DNA from: Gammaproteobacteria bacterium
GTDB taxonomy: Bacteria > Pseudomonadota > Gammaproteobacteria > Pseudomonadales > Pseudohongiellaceae
NCBI GenBank assembly: GCA_029244985.1
Contig: JAQWQD010000041.1
Location: 62,001-126,000, forward strand
Direction of reading: 5' to 3'
Length of the DNA stretch: 64,000 nt
A program made the translations under genes and the position numbers. The notes under the pieces were generated by a model. It searched no databases. It was not told the DNA's origin and saw nothing but the letters and a program-made list of their open reading frames with translations. Below, piece by piece: positions 6,673 to 50,332 of the stretch (position 1 is its first letter; each line of letters begins with the position of its first letter).

Positions 6673-6740
6673 GAGTCTCTCCAAAAATTTAATTTAAGAG
6701 ACCCGGCGCTGTTAGGACGTGTGATGAGATGTGGAATGCA

Positions 6741-6828
6741 TCCTTTTCCTACGCCGGTATTAACCGGATCAGGTTCTAGGGTTAACTGGCGTACCAGAGT
6801 CTCAGGTCAATTGACCACCCCTAAGGAA
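6741..6828 (-). promoter_or_regulatory. TPP riboswitch (THI element)
   Basis: Read on the minus strand, the element has all the usual TPP aptamer blocks in order: A-GGGGTG, a self-complementary hairpin GGTCAATTGACC, CTGAGA, then GAACCTGATCCGGTTAATACC followed by GGCGTAGGAAA. The closing P1 helix pairs TTCCTT (6828-6823) with the A/G-rich AAAAGGA at the 3' end. It sits about 70 bases ahead of the TonB receptor start. It is expected to reduce expression of the receptor, binding protein and permease when thiamine pyrophosphate is plentiful. Confidence 0.95.
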
Positions 6829-6927
6829 CAGGGCGAAGTATAACAATTAGCTAAGCCAATAGTTATAAAGAGATTCATTTATCCAGCTTTTTATATAGTA
6901 TTTAACTAAGAATAGGGTTCTTGGATC

Positions 6928-10009: not shown

Positions 10010-10352
10010 AGCGATCCACATCCCAGCAAGAAAAATAACAAATGTACCTGACTCTATTTTAAATTTTGAGATTATAGCCTTTAGTGTCACTAAATTAGTT
10101 CTAGCTTTTGTATTAAATCTAGCAGTGGTTGGCCACCTTCGATCAATACATAAAGTCTAGCTAAGGGTGGCCTTTATGGGTGGTCGTATGCCAAATTCGC
10201 TCGCGGGCTCTGATATCAAACTTGCAAGATAATAAGACTGTACAGCAGATTACAGAAATTAGTTTAATTTCTGTTGTGACTCCTTTAATTAAACTTAAAT
10301 TTTAAGAAATAATAAAACCAATTCGACCTGCCCGATTTTTTAAGGAACAGTT
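10010..10352. other. Intergenic region with one imperfect hairpin
   Basis: These 343 bases separate the small anchored protein from the acyl-CoA ligase. An inverted repeat pairs GGCCACCTT (10131-10139) with AAGGGTGGCC (10163-10172), with one bulged G and a loop of about 23 bases, and is followed by TTTAT. It could act as a weak terminator on the plus strand. I see no further gene. The ligase has an AAGGAA ribosome binding site just ahead of its ATG. Confidence 0.4.
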
Positions 10353-11999
10353 ATGCAAGCACTAATGATGAATACTCAACTCATGATCTCGTCGATACTG
10401 AAACACGCTGAGAAAAATTTTCCAGACGTTGAGATGGTATCAGTGACAGTTGATAGCCCCCGACACCGACAGAACTACAAAACATTCGCTAAGCGCAGTC
10501 GGCAGCTCGCAAATGTGCTGGAATCATTAGGAGCCAAGTTTGGCGACAGGATCGGCACTCTTGCCTGGAACGATTTTCGTCACATGGAACTTTATTATGC
10601 TGTCTCCGGCAGCGGCATGGTATGTCACACTATTAACCCAAGACTCTTTCCTGAGCAAGTGGCTTACATTATCAATCACGCAGAGGACAAAATTTTATTT
10701 GTTGATGTCTTGGTTATGCCTTTACTAGAGGCGTTGCAAGCCCATCTATCAAAAGTTGAAACAATAGTGATTCTTACTGATAAGGCTCATATGCCTGAGT
10801 CAACTTTACCTAATGTTTTGTGCTATGAAGAAATACTCGAGGCCCAATCTGATAACTATGATTGGCCGGAATTCGACGAAAATACCGCCAGTGGTATGTG
10901 CTATACCTCTGGTACTACAGGAAACCCCAAAGGCGTAGTTTACAGTCACCGATCAACAGTTATTCACGCGCTCTCCGGATCACTCCCCGACGTAACTGGG
11001 GCATCCATTATGGAAACCAGCTTACCCGTAGTGCCAATGTTCCACGTCAATGCCTGGGGAGCACCTTATGCGGCGCTGATGGTGGGAACAAAATTAGTAC
11101 TGCCGGGGCCGAAAATGGCGGACGGTGAAACCTTGCATGATTTGATCACCACAGAAAACGTTACAGTTAGCTCTGGGGTGCCCACTATTTGGTTAGCCCT
11201 GCTCGACTATCTAGAAGCAAATCAGAAGTCTGTGCCTAGCCTTAAGCGAGCAAGCGTTGGCGGTGCTGCATGTCCGCGAATTATTGTTGAGCGATTCAGA
11301 GAACAACATGACTGTGCAGTTGTACAGGGTTGGGGAATGACAGAGACTAGCCCGCTGGGTACCGTATTCTGCTTGAAGAATGGCATGGAACAGCTCTCAA
11401 CAGAAGAAGTTACAGATTTGCAATGCCTGCAAGGCCGCGGAGTTTTTGGCATAGAAATGTGTATCGTTGATGAGAACAACGAAGAATTACCCTGGGACGG
11501 TGTGGCGTTTGGCGCACTAAAAGTGAGAGGTCCATGGGTCGCCAATGGATATTATGGCTTATCGGATGTACCTGGCGAAGAAGACTGCCCAGTGGATAAA
11601 GATGGCTGGTTTCAAACTGGAGATGTTGCATCTATTACCCCTGACGGCTATCTGCAAATTACAGACAGAACTAAAGATGTCATCAAATCGGGTGGAGAAT
11701 GGATTAGCTCAATCGAGATAGAAAATGCAGCAGTAAACCACGCTGATATCGCAGAAGCTGCGGTAATAGGTCGCTATCACCCTAAATGGACTGAGAGACC
11801 ATTACTAATCGTTGTAATACAAGAAGGTAAATCATTAACAAGAGAGGACGTGCTGGAATTTTTAAAGGACAAACTACATAAAATGGCGATGCCTGATGAT
11901 GTCGTTTTTATTAACGAGTTGCCTCACACCGCAACTGGGAAAATAAACAAGCTTGGACTGCGCAATACCTTCGAGAACTATCAGTTTCCAGCGGAATAG
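10353..11999 (+). CDS. Medium/long-chain acyl-CoA ligase (AlkK-like, AMP-binding)
   Basis: This 548-residue adenylate-forming enzyme activates a fatty acid to its CoA thioester via an acyl-AMP. The P-loop motif [12 protein letters not shown] lies near residues 184-195. [11 protein letters not shown] is motif A5, and D-G-W-F-Q-T-G-D followed by [15 protein letters not shown] is the hinge region. The catalytic lysine is in T-G-K-I-N-K near the end. The N-terminus ([10 protein letters not shown]) resembles AlkK. Length is normal. AAGGAA lies 6-11 bases ahead of the ATG. No other beta-oxidation gene is adjacent. Confidence 0.92.
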
Positions 12000-45079: not shown

Positions 45080-45721
45080 CTATTCTGGGAGTTGGCAAAT
45101 TCTCTCCATTGAGGTTGTTCCGATTCCCGGATACTCCCATTTTAATACGTCGCCTTCCATATACCTCTTTACAACCGGCACCAAACCAACAGCATTGAAT
45201 TGAAGTCGGCCATCTATCCACTTAGTCGTTGCACTGGTACGTATGCAAAAATTAAATGAGCCCAAAGTCACTGGACGCACGTCATTTGAGGCGCCAGATA
45301 ATTTACCGTCTGTTGTCATGTCATGAACCACACCAGAGGAAGTCACAACATAACGGTTGCCACACTGCTCGATTCTTTCGATATGGCCTAGGCTGCCATC
45401 ACTTCTGCTCCTAGCCATCCAGAGTCCTCGCATATCAGTTGCGCCTTCCGGCAAAGGTTCAGTGCAACCCGCGAGGAACGGTTTTGGGAATACTTCGTAG
45501 CCACAATTTGGGGTATGCCCTTGAGGAATTTCTTTTGCTAGTAACCCGGAACCATCGAGAATGGGGAGCTGACAATAATTTATAGCTTGCGCACTACCTT
45601 CATAGACATGATCTGGAGTTAGGTTACCTGGGCGTGGGAAAAACAGAAGAGCAAGCACAAATAGAACAGGTATGGAAACTAGAACCCCCAAGAAAATCAA
45701 AAGCCCTCGTTTCCAATTCAC
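45080..45721 (-). CDS. Exported or membrane-anchored cysteine-rich protein, unknown family
   Basis: The protein has 213 residues with one strong hydrophobic segment at the N-terminus (about residues 6-27) and a globular exterior domain. Six cysteines lie outside the membrane segment (in N-Y-C-Q, P-N-C-G, A-G-C-T, E-Q-C-G, N-F-C-I and R-I-C-Q), which suggests disulfides. The start is GTG 45721, only 4 bases past the stop of the selenoprotein, so the two are co-translated. I do not recognise a family. Its link to the TRAP/selenoprotein operon is the only functional clue. Confidence 0.7.
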   Translation of the reverse strand: MNWKRGLLIFLGVLVSIPVLFVLALLFFPRPGNLTPDHVYEGSAQAINYCQLPILDGSGLLAKEIPQGHTPNCGYEVFPKPFLAGCTEPLPEGATDMRGLWMARSRSDGSLGHIERIEQCGNRYVVTSSGVVHDMTTDGKLSGASNDVRPVTLGSFNFCIRTSATTKWIDGRLQFNAVGLVPVVKRYMEGDVLKWEYPGIGTTSMERICQLPE

Positions 45722-45725
45722 CGCT

Positions 45726-46871
45726 CTATCGATCTCCCGGGGCCATATAAAACCAAATTGGCCGCTTTTCTCCAGCTTGCTTCATTGCCGCGCGAGCTTG
45801 CAACACGATTTGACCGGTTTCAGTTATATCGAAAAACCAGTTCGCCCCAGACCAGGCAGCGGGAATATGATCACTAAGTCCCAAGGCAGCGCATTCATAG
45901 TAACCGCGAATGTCTTGAGCAACCCGTGAAGGGATACCAGGGATGCCAGCTTGTTTCCACGGCGTTCCTTCAACAACGCGAATTAGAGACGCCACAGCAC
46001 TTTCAATTTTATCGACTTCGACTACACGCCCTGTTCCGGCACGGTTGCCATAACGTTCTATCGCGCGATCATAGGCGGGCCGCAAACCACGAATCTCATC
46101 AAGGGCTGCATGCAAGCCTTCATTCGAGCGCGGCGGCAATGGGCAAGACAAACTTGCAGCGCCACCTTCTTCGACTGTTTCATTAAATTCTTCTATGAGT
46201 GGGTGCTCTGCACCGAGAAGGTTGAAGGCATGGGCTAAAACTTTGTGTTGAAATTCCTTATCATTCGGCACTCCCAATGGTCTCCCTAATGGAAAGTTGC
46301 ACAATAGGCCGCGCGGTGGCGCACCGCTTTCTAGTTGCTTACGGACAGACCCAAGCGAAATAGTAGCAATACCATGTGCTTCAAAAACATGAGCGAGCGT
46401 ACTCACGGTACGCGTGCATAAAGGTCAGACCGGCGTTAGCAGAACGACGTCAACCCCATTTTCCTTAAGGAATTTCGCGCCAGCTGGGCCACTGTCCATG
46501 CGGGTAGCACTCAAATCGAATTGATTGCCCGCATAGGATAGATGCACATCAGATACTTTCCCAATAGTACCGTCAGCAGCAAGCTCATCTAATCGATCAA
46601 GAGGAATAACGGTATTCATATCTACCACAAATCCGACGGCATCAAAATTTGGACTCCAATGCCCGATTTGAAAATCACGCTTACCGTTATCCAATATCCG
46701 GTAACCCGTATCCGCTGGTGCAAAATCATCCTGCTCTTCATGATGTAAAGATGCCGTGCTAACAATAGCTATTGTTGCCTCATTCAACGGAGGCGGTTGA
46801 GTGAAAGCCCGCTCGTCAAATACCCATGGCGGCTGGTCTTCTCCCATCGCTTTTACAAATACGTCTGACAT
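45726..46871 (-). CDS. Selenoprotein of the glycine/sarcosine/betaine/D-proline reductase B family (TGA = Sec at 46427-46425)
   Basis: ATG 46871 with AAGGA upstream opens a frame that reads to residue 148, meets TGA at 46427-46425, and continues in the same frame to TAG at 45728-45726, 381 residues in all. Around the TGA it reads L-L-T-P-V-U-P-L-C-T-R-T, a UxxC redox motif in the place where PrdB/GrdB selenoproteins carry selenocysteine. Upstream, A-S-L-H-H-E-E, G-Y-R-I-L and I-G-H-W-S-P-N-F-D also fit that family. Downstream, A-H-V-F-E-A-H-G-I-A-T-I-S-L and P-L-G-R-P-L-G fit it too. A SECIS-like hairpin follows. A GTG at 46406 would make a pipeline call two genes. No PrdA or other glycine reductase partner is nearby, so the substrate is unknown. 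It lies 93 bases behind the TRAP permease. Confidence 0.9.
46397..46427 (-). promoter_or_regulatory. Bacterial SECIS-like hairpin with Sec-coding TGA
   Basis: On the minus strand the TGA (46427-46425) is followed by 17 bases and then a 5-base apical loop C-G-U-G-A (46407-46403). A perfect 6-pair stem closes the loop: GCGUAC (46413-46408) with GUACGC (46402-46397). Further weak pairing below (AUG with CAU) is possible. A G in the first two loop positions and a distance of 16-37 bases from UGA to the loop are the usual criteria for bacterial SECIS elements, and both are met. Confidence 0.75.
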
Positions 46872-46964: not shown

Positions 46965-48929
46965 TTAACTAGCTTCAGTTTCAACTAAAACAGAATCCGA
47001 GATAGATCTTCGACTAATTAATATGCCCATCGATGCTGTTATCGCACCAACAATAAGTAGCGTCACTTGCCCCACATTAAAACCAATGACCTCAGTAGTA
47101 GGTAACGCAATTAATCCACCGCCAATGATAACTAAGATGCGACCAGCTGCTCCCAGAGATCCTGGACGATCAATGAAACCTATAGCAATTACATAACTTT
47201 GGAGTGTGCCGGCGATTAACACAATACCTATTGCAACTTTTAGTGTGGCAGTTAATGTCTGCAATAAACTACCTTCCATAATTAAGGCTGGCTCCAACAC
47301 AAAGAAAAACGGTATAAAATAGATAATGCTGCCTAAACGCATCGCCTTGAAGCCCGTTGAAAGGGCTGATGAGCCAGCAATACTCGCGGCAGCAAATGCA
47401 CCCAGGGCAACTGGCGGCGTAATAAATGAAAGCATGCCCCAATACAAAATAAAGAGATGGACACTCATTGGATCCAGGCCACCCTGAATAAGAGCAGGGG
47501 CGAGCACTATTGCCAAGAATATATAGGCCGCTGTTACGGTCATACCAATTCCTAACAAGAAACTACTAAACGCTCCCATCAATAAAAGCAGAAGTGTGGA
47601 ATCCCCAGCTAGGTATAAGAGGTCATTAACAAGGGTCCCAGATAGCCCGGTTACTGACAGAGCGCCAACTATCAGACCTACTCCAGCCATTATGGTAAGT
47701 AATTCCATTAGTAACTTTCCAGTGGCAACGAGAAATGAAGCGGCTTGTTTTAGATTCCAACGATTGTCAGTTGAGAGTTGGTTTAAGACGACGAGCACAC
47801 CGGTCGCGATAAACGGCGCTACTGCTTCTCGCTGCAAATAAACTAATAAAAAAATTAATACCGCAAAAGCGGCAATATAAAACCAGCCTTGCTTCATAGT
47901 GGTACTTAAACTTGGCAGCTCTTCCTTGGGAGTTCCAACCAACCCTTTGCGTGCAGCATAAGCATCAACTTGAATAAATAATCCAAAGAAATACAAGAAA
48001 GCGGGAATGGCTGCGGCTAATGCCACAGTGGTATAGGGAACATTTAGAAAAGTCGCCATGACGAACGCGGTAGACCCCATAATCGGCGGCAATAATACGC
48101 CCCCCGTTGAAGCACAGGCTTCGATCCCCGCGGCATAATCTTTTTCCATACCATTTTTCTGCATGGCTGGAATCGTCATCTGGCCTGTAGTCAGTACATT
48201 CGTAATTACGCTTCCACTCATGGATCCCATCAACCCACTAGATACTATTGCCACTTTTGCAGAACCTCCACGCACATGGCCAAAAACTGCGAAAGCTAGG
48301 TTTATAAAAAATCGACCACCGCCTGTTTGTTGCAAAGCAATGCCAAAGATCAAAAAACCAATAACCAACTGAGCGAAAGCTCTAAAAGGCAAACCGAGAA
48401 TACTCTCAATGCTCATGACATGATAAGAAGCAGTCTCCGACAACGATGAAGACATACCGGAAATCGGCCCTGGCAATTTATCTGCAACAATTGGGTAGAG
48501 TGAAAATACCAGCACCAATAAAAATAGCACCATGCCGCCGCTGCGGCGAACCGCTTCCATTATTAGCACCCATAGCAAATAACTAACCCATACTGCATAG
48601 CTTGGTGCCAAAAATTCCCAACCAAAGTCCAGCATAGTTTCCGCATTTACGAAAAAGAAGGCGCAGGACGAAAATGCTGCCAGGCTAAGCACACTATCAA
48701 AATAATAAGATTTAGGACTGCGAAACGTAGGGTAGATCAGGAAACATAGAGGGAGCAACAAACCCATTAAAGCATAGTAATAATGATTCTGAACTGTGAT
48801 AACAAAATCTAAGAGCGGCGCCTCAGCAAATAAACGCAGAGAATCCATGGCTAGAAAGGCACTACCAACCGCGGCAATCCCTGTCACCCACTGGAGCGGC
48901 GTAGGTAATGTACCTGAGTGGCTCGCCAC
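46965..48929 (-). CDS. TRAP transporter fused permease (DctQM-type, TAXI-associated)
   Basis: This inner-membrane protein of about 654 residues has an N-terminal four-helix DctQ-like part and a large DctM-like part. G-L-M-G-S-M-S-G-S-V-I-T-N-V and G-G-V-L-L-P-P-I-M-G are hallmark segments of fused 4TM/12TM TRAP permeases. L-G-I-G-M-T-V-T-A-A-Y-I-F and F-I-T-P-P-V-A-L-G-A-F-A-A-A-S-I-A are the second-half equivalents. I place the start at GTG 48929, which shares one base with the stop of the solute receptor (TAGTG); the frame is open to 48989. It uses the sodium or proton gradient to import the ligand of the adjoining receptor. Confidence 0.93.
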   Translation of the reverse strand: MASHSGTLPTPLQWVTGIAAVGSAFLAMDSLRLFAEAPLLDFVITVQNHYYYALMGLLLPLCFLIYPTFRSPKSYYFDSVLSLAAFSSCAFFFVNAETMLDFGWEFLAPSYAVWVSYLLWVLIMEAVRRSGGMVLFLLVLVFSLYPIVADKLPGPISGMSSSLSETASYHVMSIESILGLPFRAFAQLVIGFLIFGIALQQTGGGRFFINLAFAVFGHVRGGSAKVAIVSSGLMGSMSGSVITNVLTTGQMTIPAMQKNGMEKDYAAGIEACASTGGVLLPPIMGSTAFVMATFLNVPYTTVALAAAIPAFLYFFGLFIQVDAYAARKGLVGTPKEELPSLSTTMKQGWFYIAAFAVLIFLLVYLQREAVAPFIATGVLVVLNQLSTDNRWNLKQAASFLVATGKLLMELLTIMAGVGLIVGALSVTGLSGTLVNDLLYLAGDSTLLLLLMGAFSSFLLGIGMTVTAAYIFLAIVLAPALIQGGLDPMSVHLFILYWGMLSFITPPVALGAFAAASIAGSSALSTGFKAMRLGSIIYFIPFFFVLEPALIMEGSLLQTLTATLKVAIGIVLIAGTLQSYVIAIGFIDRPGSLGAAGRILVIIGGGLIALPTTEVIGFNVGQVTLLIVGAITASMGILISRRSISDSVLVETEAS

Positions 48930-50119
48930 TAGCGCCAGACCGGATCGAAGCCGGCTGCATCTAAGTGTTGCGCACGAATTTGCATCCACGCTGCAACGAA
49001 TTGATCTCGATCACGAATATTTTTTGCAATCACTTCGATCCAGGCAGCCGCCAGAACCTCCTGGCGCCTAATTAGCTCCTGATTGTGGGCATCAATTTCG
49101 TCTGTCCATACGCCTATTTCCCGCCAGTAGGATACAGCACCTTCATGATAGGGGACTACCCAGTCAAAGACTTGTCGGTCGAGTGCCCAGCCAATGGCAC
49201 CAGGGTCCGAGTCTTTATAGTCATCGTAGTTTTCGTTCATTACCCGAGTTAGTGAATAAACCAAATCAGAATCCTGAGTCGTTAGTGCTGTTAACAGAGG
49301 ATAGGGGTATGTCCCTGCTTCAAGGGGATTGTCATCGTTGATAGCAGCTCCGCGGGTCGCCATGTGTTTTGTAAAATAAGGACTGATGGCTAAAAGCCTC
49401 TGCCAACAATCTTCATCGTCATGTGGTACTTCTAGCCAATGAATACCTCGTGGGGAAGCTTCCAGGCGAAACGGTGGTCCGGAAACGGTTGCCCCAAAAC
49501 CAACATCAACATCACCATTAATTATGCCGTTCCAGTTAGCTTCATAGCCGGGAAAATCAACCCGCACCACATCATCCCAAGTCAACCCACCACAGGCCAA
49601 ATGAGCTTCCACAGAAACATTAAGCGCCGGTGCCGCACGCACATAGGCAACTCGGCGTCCCCGCAGATCGGCAAAGCTCGTGACACCAGTATCAGCAGCC
49701 ACAGCGACCGCCTGATTACTCAGCCCATTAGAAGTCATCAATAAACGCAGGGGCTGTGGGCCCCATTCCTGGGAAGCAAATTGGAAAGTGCCTTCTTGAG
49801 CAAAATAAGTGGCAACACCATTGGCCGAGAAATCGACTCGACCAGTTTTAAGCGGCAACAAGCGTGAAACATCGTTCTGACCAGGTATGACCCGCAAAGT
49901 AGTATTGTATTTTTCCCGCAGCATGGCGCCGATGGCAACAGCCTGGTTATACCCTGTCGTGCCTAGGTTATAGGCTGTCCAGGCCATCTGACGCGGGAGT
50001 TCAGGCTCACTAGGCTGGGCCATGGTCACGCCTGATATGAAACAAGTAAGCATTAGGCCGCTAATGGCAAAGACTTTGCTGTAGCGTGAAACTGATGTTT
50101 TCAGGTACTTCAATAACAC
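48929..50119 (-). CDS. TAXI-family TRAP transporter solute-binding protein
   Basis: GTG 50119 is preferred because AGGAGA lies 6 bases upstream; the frame is open to 50236. The protein of about 396 residues has a signal peptide (cleavage near T-M-A-Q) and a TAXI-type periplasmic binding fold. Y-N-L-G-T-T-G-Y-N-Q is the ligand-region motif that gives the TAXI class its name in variant form (usual G-T-A-x-G-x-x-Y). Later come V-D-F-S-A-N-G-V and L-R-G-R-R-V-A-Y-V. Several cysteines occur (A-C-G-G, D-E-D-C-W). It captures a small organic solute, often a carboxylate or amino acid, for the TRAP permease. It is the first gene of the selenoprotein operon. Confidence 0.9.
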   Translation of the reverse strand: MLLKYLKTSVSRYSKVFAISGLMLTCFISGVTMAQPSEPELPRQMAWTAYNLGTTGYNQAVAIGAMLREKYNTTLRVIPGQNDVSRLLPLKTGRVDFSANGVATYFAQEGTFQFASQEWGPQPLRLLMTSNGLSNQAVAVAADTGVTSFADLRGRRVAYVRAAPALNVSVEAHLACGGLTWDDVVRVDFPGYEANWNGIINGDVDVGFGATVSGPPFRLEASPRGIHWLEVPHDDEDCWQRLLAISPYFTKHMATRGAAINDDNPLEAGTYPYPLLTALTTQDSDLVYSLTRVMNENYDDYKDSDPGAIGWALDRQVFDWVVPYHEGAVSYWREIGVWTDEIDAHNQELIRRQEVLAAAWIEVIAKNIRDRDQFVAAWMQIRAQHLDAAGFDPVWR

Positions 50120-50332
50120 TCTTGTTCTCCTGGTGGATTTGCTGCCCGAAGGCCAAAGGATACTAACAAAAGGGGCTGAAGAGATAGAGCAATTGTAGGT
50201 TAAGCGCTTTAATCTCAAATTCGATCGAGAAGCCAATGTTCTTTTCCTTCAATCATTATGTTATTAAGTGGTCAGATTTTCTGCTTCCACCCTTTTATTG
50301 CTGTGCAGATAAGCACTAATTACAGGTATTCC

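Follow-up and report, generated by a model that had tools for sequence, protein, structure and literature searches.

Two apparent open reading frames (ORFs) on the minus strand of the window, the whole stretch of 64,000 nucleotides analyzed here, almost certainly form one gene whose internal stop codon encodes selenocysteine (Sec), as judged from the comparative data set out below. The predicted product is a genuine relative of PrdB and GrdB, which belong to the D-proline and the glycine/sarcosine/betaine reductases known from anaerobes, while being neither of the two.

Reading frame, recoded codon and hairpin

The first part of the analysis concerns the following features of the window:

45726..46871, minus strand: predicted selenoprotein gene, PrdB/GrdB-like, long form, 381 codons followed by TAG (from translation and profile matches)
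46425..46427, minus strand: in-frame TGA, predicted Sec at residue 149 in a UxxC site with Cys152 (from the frame, the Cys relatives and the conservation of the TGA)
46404..46406, minus strand: GTG, a false start in automatic annotation (from the ORF list and database entries)
46397..46413, minus strand: SECIS hairpin with a 6-bp stem and a loop with G at +19 (from comparative pairing)

The first-pass annotation had described two same-frame ORFs split only by the TGA at 46427-46425 and six codons, and this was confirmed: from ATG to TAG (46871-45726) the frame is open over 381 residues with TGA read as Sec, and the sole in-frame TGA corresponds to residue 149 within LLTPV-U-PLCTRTV. The sequence AAGGA was seen by eye just 5' of the ATG. 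Without recoding, the frame yields an ORF of 148 aa (46871-46425) and one of 226 aa beginning at a GTG (46406) six codons past the TGA. This GTG, already described as a weak start inside the hairpin, indeed occupies bases +19 to +21 after the TGA, inside the SECIS loop; it is present in 68 long-form genes and missing in the remaining 16 of 84.

A search for relatives gave 1015 proteins at E<=0.001 among 7999 scored candidates, and the best 120 of the 1015 were inspected. These reveal a systematic annotation error, 112 of the 120 being cut at the TGA and comprising only the part after it, and 106 of the 112 starting exactly at residue 156, that is, at the false GTG inside the SECIS loop. The other eight are full length, and all eight have Cys at residue 149, so that homologs with Cys at this site, a check proposed in the first-pass annotation, do exist. 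Regarding nucleotide sequences, genome_contigs, in which 84,980 species are represented by one genome each, was scanned with patterns from which the TGA site was excluded, and 115 relatives were detected. The best 80 of these 115 were kept, and all of them, together with the window gene, have TGA at the exact Sec residue and no second in-frame TGA within the matched region. The TGA is also present in three of three further long forms from the same order, none of which duplicates an earlier locus, giving 84 of 84 long forms; the 81 long-form proteins of the first set are all distinct. Compared with L176, the closest of the relatives fetched, the window gene has an amino acid identity of 68% on the 5' side of the TGA and of 67% on the 3' side, with a dN/dS (NG86) of approximately 0.1 for both (0.29/3.05 before, 0.29/2.58 after); since dS is saturated, the ratio shows only that both sides of the TGA are under purifying selection.

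Regarding the capacity for Sec decoding, the genome of the window (G000, a draft of 3.20 Mb in 76 contigs, 95.72% complete) encodes a tRNA-Sec (61.3 bits, cut-off 47; confirmed by ARAGORN, anticodon tca) as well as SelB (398 bits), SelA (575.9 bits) and SelD (289.4 bits), each above its own cut-off, and selA, selB, selC and selD, named as a check in the first-pass annotation, are therefore all present. A second Sec gene of this genome, of the short form (C37:3566-4183; loci L018 and L128), reads VPLUPVCHQT, has a SECIS element (CCAGAC-CGTGG-GTCTGA) with five of six pairs and adjoins a gene for an HpcH/HpaI-type aldolase. In other genomes, selA, selB and tRNA-Sec come after a mid-form Sec gene in one stretch (G265), selA lies near a related Sec gene (G361), and a SelD-fusion gene adjoins a short-form Sec gene (G091). 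At locus L130 (4860-10332) a PrdB-like Sec gene, selA, selB and tRNA-Sec fall within 5.5 kb, an arrangement that resembles a transferable Sec cassette.

In the window gene, bases +12 to +17 after the TGA pair with +23 to +28 around a five-base loop (+18 to +22) with G at +19, a layout of stem and loop G that agrees with the published bSECIS rule. Single-sequence folding of 46380-46436 gave a stability that was not unusual (z 0.18), which alone counts against a hairpin, and was for this reason replaced by comparative tests of the specific stem. Over the 81 long forms, pairing was found in 99.4% of cells, compared with at most 86.2% when one arm was slid by up to 4 bases. The pair +15/+25 is T-A in 40 of these genes, C-G in 40 and unpaired in one; on the protein tree this switch requires 15 changes, of which branches with good support enforce 8 to 9, and in nine independent supported contrasts the partner base follows in eight, opposes in none and is unchanged in one (p 0.0078). 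At the switch (pairs +14/+26 and +15/+25) the encoded residue is Thr in 41 long forms vs. Val in 34 or Ala in 6, and as the choice is tied to the synonymous third base of an Arg codon, RNA pairing explains it best. An RNA stem would here be shaping a protein residue, Thr or Val/Ala being chosen in step with the synonymous Arg codon at the 15 changes.

The same stem geometry is built from different sequences across subfamilies (GCGTAC/GTACGC, GGGCGC/GCGCCC, TCAGAC/GTCTGA), including a true GrdB (GCGTTG/CAACGC). At least five of six pairs and G at +19 were found in 84/84 long, 6/6 mid, 16/16 short and 1/1 GrdB Sec genes and in a further 7/7 short and 1/1 GrdB Sec genes, 115/115 in total, one duplicate locus having been dropped and the set standing apart from fragment L169, which stops before the site, and from nine order-scan matches. 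Among 20 Cys genes, at least five pairs occur in three and G at +19 in six. The stem is imperfect in some of the Sec genes, an unbroken run of five pairs from the loop being present in 82/84 long, 4/6 mid and 15/16 short forms. Synonymous-codon shuffling showed an effect that was modest on average, with a mean z of -0.71 for the 81 long forms vs. -0.27 to +0.09 in their control windows, and -0.32 for Cys genes; significance in individual genes was rare, a rank of 0.05 or better being reached by nine of the 81 long forms, while the window gene had rank 0.10. No SECIS-type Rfam match was detected in the window at the gathering threshold; elsewhere in the window there is a TPP riboswitch (6729-6832, minus strand, 72.7 bits).

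Decoding of the TGA as Sec is thus supported by tRNA-Sec together with SelA, SelB and SelD, by the Sec/Cys exchange at the site, and by the SECIS geometry with its compensatory changes. Selenium itself is not visible from sequence, and the TGA might in principle be read as another residue (Trp, Cys or through a suppressor), which is highly improbable given the full Sec machinery, the element with its conserved loop G directly 3' of the codon, the Sec/Cys exchange and the fact that the matched region holds just one in-frame TGA in all 81 long-form genes. That there are two separate genes, or that a real stop or a sequencing error interrupts the gene, as the mechanical list of a 148-aa and a 226-aa ORF and the 106 database entries beginning at the GTG would have it, has practically no probability left and is ruled out, pseudogene included, by the TGA in 84/84 long forms over several phyla, the GTG missing in 16 of them, the covarying hairpin, the equal constraint on either side of the TGA and the Cys relatives that read straight across the site.

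Relationship to PrdB and GrdB and the partner subunit

The full protein matches the NCBIfam model of D-proline reductase PrdB (TIGR04483) over residues 27-219 with 105.8 bits, well below the cut-off of 300; the match spans the TGA, and homology across this codon, the lack of which would have refuted the first-pass annotation, is therefore present. Four GrdB-type NCBIfam models match more weakly than PrdB, including TIGR01918 for a GrdB subfamily (38.4 bits, cut-off 65.45). PF07355 (GRDB), which had been suggested as a check, matches residues 75-146 with 26.1 bits, above the gathering score of 22, but aligns to no more than 71 positions at the end of the profile (275-345 of 347). The initial interpretation is supported, none of its refuting conditions having been borne out, with one refinement on the family: as the scores fall below the PrdB and GrdB-subfamily cut-offs, the protein may be called a "reductase-B relative" but not a "reductase B".

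The likeness to PrdB consists of the homology over residues 27-219 across the Sec, the UxxC site and the Cys/Sec exchange, while the window protein differs in its sub-cut-off score and in an additional domain:

45729..46160, minus strand: C-terminal all-helical domain, residues 238-381, beyond the PrdB and GrdB profile matches

With GrdB the protein shares the C-terminal part of the GrdB domain and the Sec position: the Sec of L192, a true GrdB from the same order, aligns to residue 149. L192 and L168 (genomes G944 and G1067) are true GrdB-type Sec genes (UGTCTRC) of the same order, and their SECIS geometry is the same. The window protein differs from GrdB in that the GrdB models match it no earlier than from their profile positions 273-283, in its score below the TIGR01918 cut-off and in its motif, which is UxxC (U149-P-L-C152-T-R-T155), without the third Cys of the UxxCxxC given for GrdB in the accessible part of a review (PMC13188914).

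The added helical domain comprises about 140 residues, and its Cys243 is invariant in a 38-row alignment. Away from UxxC, the same 38 rows have many invariant polar residues (H71, S73, N75, D77, D84, H110, D126, R154, E164, R187, R197, E259, R269, D320, Y325, W345). None of the solved structures compared was near enough for a mechanism to be transferred.

Regarding the partner subunit, PF09338, which comprises the reductase partner subunits, including the pyruvoyl-bearing ones, and covers PrdA, had no match in G000. As this first search had no control match, it was repeated with G944, the genome carrying a true GrdB, in which two matches (652 and 600 bits) were obtained. As G000 is a draft of incomplete coverage, a gene missing there is no proof, and the negative result was repeated in eight other genomes, so that PF09338 was detected in none of nine genomes with PrdB-like genes, all drafts in which absence is not proof (long form: G000, G971, G1028, G1093; mid form: G901, G778, G1061, G265; Cys mid form: G1062). 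The absence of pyruvoyl partners noted at the outset thus holds as far as tested, and the lack of a PF09338-type subunit sets the window protein apart from both PrdB and GrdB. A further difference from PrdB is that the genome of the window has a terminal (cytochrome) oxidase, the haem-copper oxidase subunit I scoring 452 bits, which is consistent with oxygen respiration and fits the earlier description of an aerobic bacterium; the accessible text of a 2016 survey places Sec use in aerobes and anaerobes alike (PMC5029168).

Distribution, published records and gene neighborhood

Going by how the records are labeled, a tree of the 81 long-form proteins includes Actinomycetota, Chloroflexota, Pseudomonadota, Myxococcota, Acidobacteriota and Dormiibacterota; in it, two Pseudomonadales MAGs form a group with the window gene (support 100/99). 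Occurrence is patchy, with any match in 8/369 genomes of the class, 16/398 of the phylum and 27/390 of the order, counts that include the window's own genome and mostly reflect matches to shorter relatives. One metagenome bin in the set (L039) is labeled Klebsiella pneumoniae; its gene copy groups with other bins, and from this position the label looks wrong.

Marine UxxC selenoproteins of this kind have been counted as "PrdB" since 2005 and are not new. In the accessible parts of the marine surveys, 42 Sec and one Cys "PrdB" with UXXC are given for the Sargasso Sea (PMC1088965), 235 Sec and 110 Cys PrdB, with pfam07355 in a table, for the GOS data in 2008 (PMC2398784), and 6.4% of selenoprotein genes are assigned to "proline reductase" in 2021 (PMC9402790). 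The marine "proline reductase PrdB" and the window gene share UxxC, and the former is abundant in the surface ocean; compared by description, the two probably belong to the same broad family. The surveys, as far as their accessible text goes, differ in that the long, mid and short forms are not separated, no test for the partner subunit is included and the function is named as clostridial (PMC1088965, PMC2398784), and the available portions of the 2022 and 2026 reviews give only the D-proline reaction (PMC9312934, PMC13188914). With the broad family already in print, the novelty is smaller than the first-pass annotation implies; within a literature search that lay outside most subscription journals, no report of a partner-less aerobic form and no assigned reaction for the partner-less subfamily were found. 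It is the partner-less, domain-extended variant without an assigned reaction that deserves attention.

The neighborhood of the gene in the window comprises:

46965..48989, minus strand: fused TRAP transporter permease, ending 93 bp before the start of the selenoprotein gene
48929..50236, minus strand: TAXI-family TRAP solute-binding protein; the ORF overlaps the permease ORF and the start codons are uncertain
45080..45721, minus strand: 213-aa ORF from the ORF list, with a GTG start 4 bp past the selenoprotein stop

The TRAP permease and the selenoprotein gene lie on the same strand and possibly form an operon. Among 195 loci, the permease was found only in the window gene's own loci, and since no partner gene is shared across the 81 long-form loci, the link to the transporter comes from one genome. 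The N-terminal part of the 213-aa ORF includes a stretch that is hydrophobic by eye; at E<=0.001 neither Pfam nor NCBIfam gave a match, and there is one weak relative elsewhere, in L082, some kb from the Sec gene. A scan for promoters and terminators remained at chance level. In L176, the locus of the closest relative fetched, a 354-aa gene (10159-11223, minus strand) lies immediately upstream of the long-form gene; no Pfam or NCBIfam match was obtained for this 354-aa gene, and its homologs are located 5 to 7 kb from long-form genes in L073 and L041.

TauD- or PhyH-type dioxygenase genes were detected in four of the 81 long-form loci. In the mid form, TauD-family dioxygenase genes lie within about 2 kb of five of seven genes (beside the Sec, in one case Cys, genes of L177, L178, L179, L180 and L181), in four genomes that each have between 12 and 21 TauD matches, two of the four belonging to one genus and the family having been picked after looking; at both mid-form genes of G265 and G361 this neighbor is missing. 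The association is suggestive for the sister mid-form subfamily and is no evidence on the window gene. Genes upstream in eight related loci each, named by eye as encoding xylose isomerase and xylulokinase, were set aside as local synteny, and genes of dehalogenase-like, sulfatase-like and CoA-pathway types in the vicinity of some loci (named by eye) were too common to weigh.

Proposed reaction and alternatives

The protein is very probably a thiol-dependent redox or reductive enzyme. The best guess, put a little above even, is a Sec enzyme regenerated by thiols that would cleave a C-X bond reductively without pyruvoyl activation; cleavage of C-X is likewise slightly favored over the plain reduction of disulfides or oxidants. 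The product would be a soluble selenoenzyme whose substrate is a small organic molecule, perhaps taken up through the TRAP-TAXI transporter encoded next to it, and that this transporter supplies the substrate is a possibility held at somewhat less than even. In the proposed sequence, the Sec149 selenolate would attack an electrophilic carbon from which N, S, O or halogen can depart as the leaving group, giving a Se-carbon intermediate which Cys152 would resolve to a selenenylsulfide with release of the reduced product, and a thioredoxin-type thiol system would then reduce the Se-S bond; the substrate would be activated by the protein itself and not through a pyruvoyl Schiff base.

Direct attack by Sec alongside a partner that forms no pyruvoyl group has a precedent in the hypothesis on FarB and FarE, as set out in the accessible text (PMC10838667): FarB is a proposed fluoroacetate-cleaving relative of GrdB that would likewise attack a C-X bond directly with Sec; it is without the conserved CxxC residues, and FarE is without the cysteines for a pyruvoyl group. 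It differs from the window protein in belonging to a rumen bacterium and to dehalorespiration, in an operon that also encodes an antiporter and a radical-SAM protein, and in keeping FarE, the partner type missing here (PMC10838667). That even FarB keeps such a partner speaks against the proposed mechanism, and it also counts against it that the strongest neighbor signal, TauD, belongs to the sister subfamily.

A general selenoprotein for thiol-disulfide exchange or for the reduction of oxidants or electrophiles, with the reductase-B fold kept and the lyase chemistry not, is unlikely, if still to be reckoned with. UxxC is common among marine redox selenoproteins according to the available parts of two surveys (PMC1088965, PMC2398784), the long form is without conserved pathway neighbors and an oxidase is present; on the other hand, the many invariant polar residues away from UxxC in the 38 rows look like a substrate pocket and less like a broad disulfide reductase, and five of the seven sister mid-form genes lie beside TauD-family dioxygenases. 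It is improbable that the gene encodes a true D-proline reductase, or a close amino-acid reductase, with an unrelated activating partner: PrdB is the best named match (105.8 bits, residues 27-219) and three of the best 120 relatives are named "D-proline reductase (dithiol) PrdB", but the score is far under the 300-bit cut-off, PF09338 was not found in nine of nine genomes although the positive control matched, and there is the extra helical domain of about 140 residues.

Returning to reductive C-X cleavage, a wider reading is offered tentatively and is itself rather unlikely: the long and mid forms may be stand-alone Sec reductive lyases of O2-respiring bacteria in several phyla, working without a pyruvoyl group or PF09338, in which the C-terminal domain with Cys243 would activate the substrate and which, together with Fe/2-oxoglutarate dioxygenases in the mid form, would provide a new C-X route for small marine organics. 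Taken together, the two versions with Sec and with Cys, the hairpin and the lack of the partner open the function to direct tests in E. coli. If the stand-alone lyase reading is true, the label "D-proline reductase" on many ocean sequences would be wrong; and as marine "PrdB" is, in the accessible survey text, among the more abundant selenoproteins of the surface ocean while nine of nine genomes were found without the needed subunit family, one of the commoner selenoprotein families of the sea may be without an assigned reaction.
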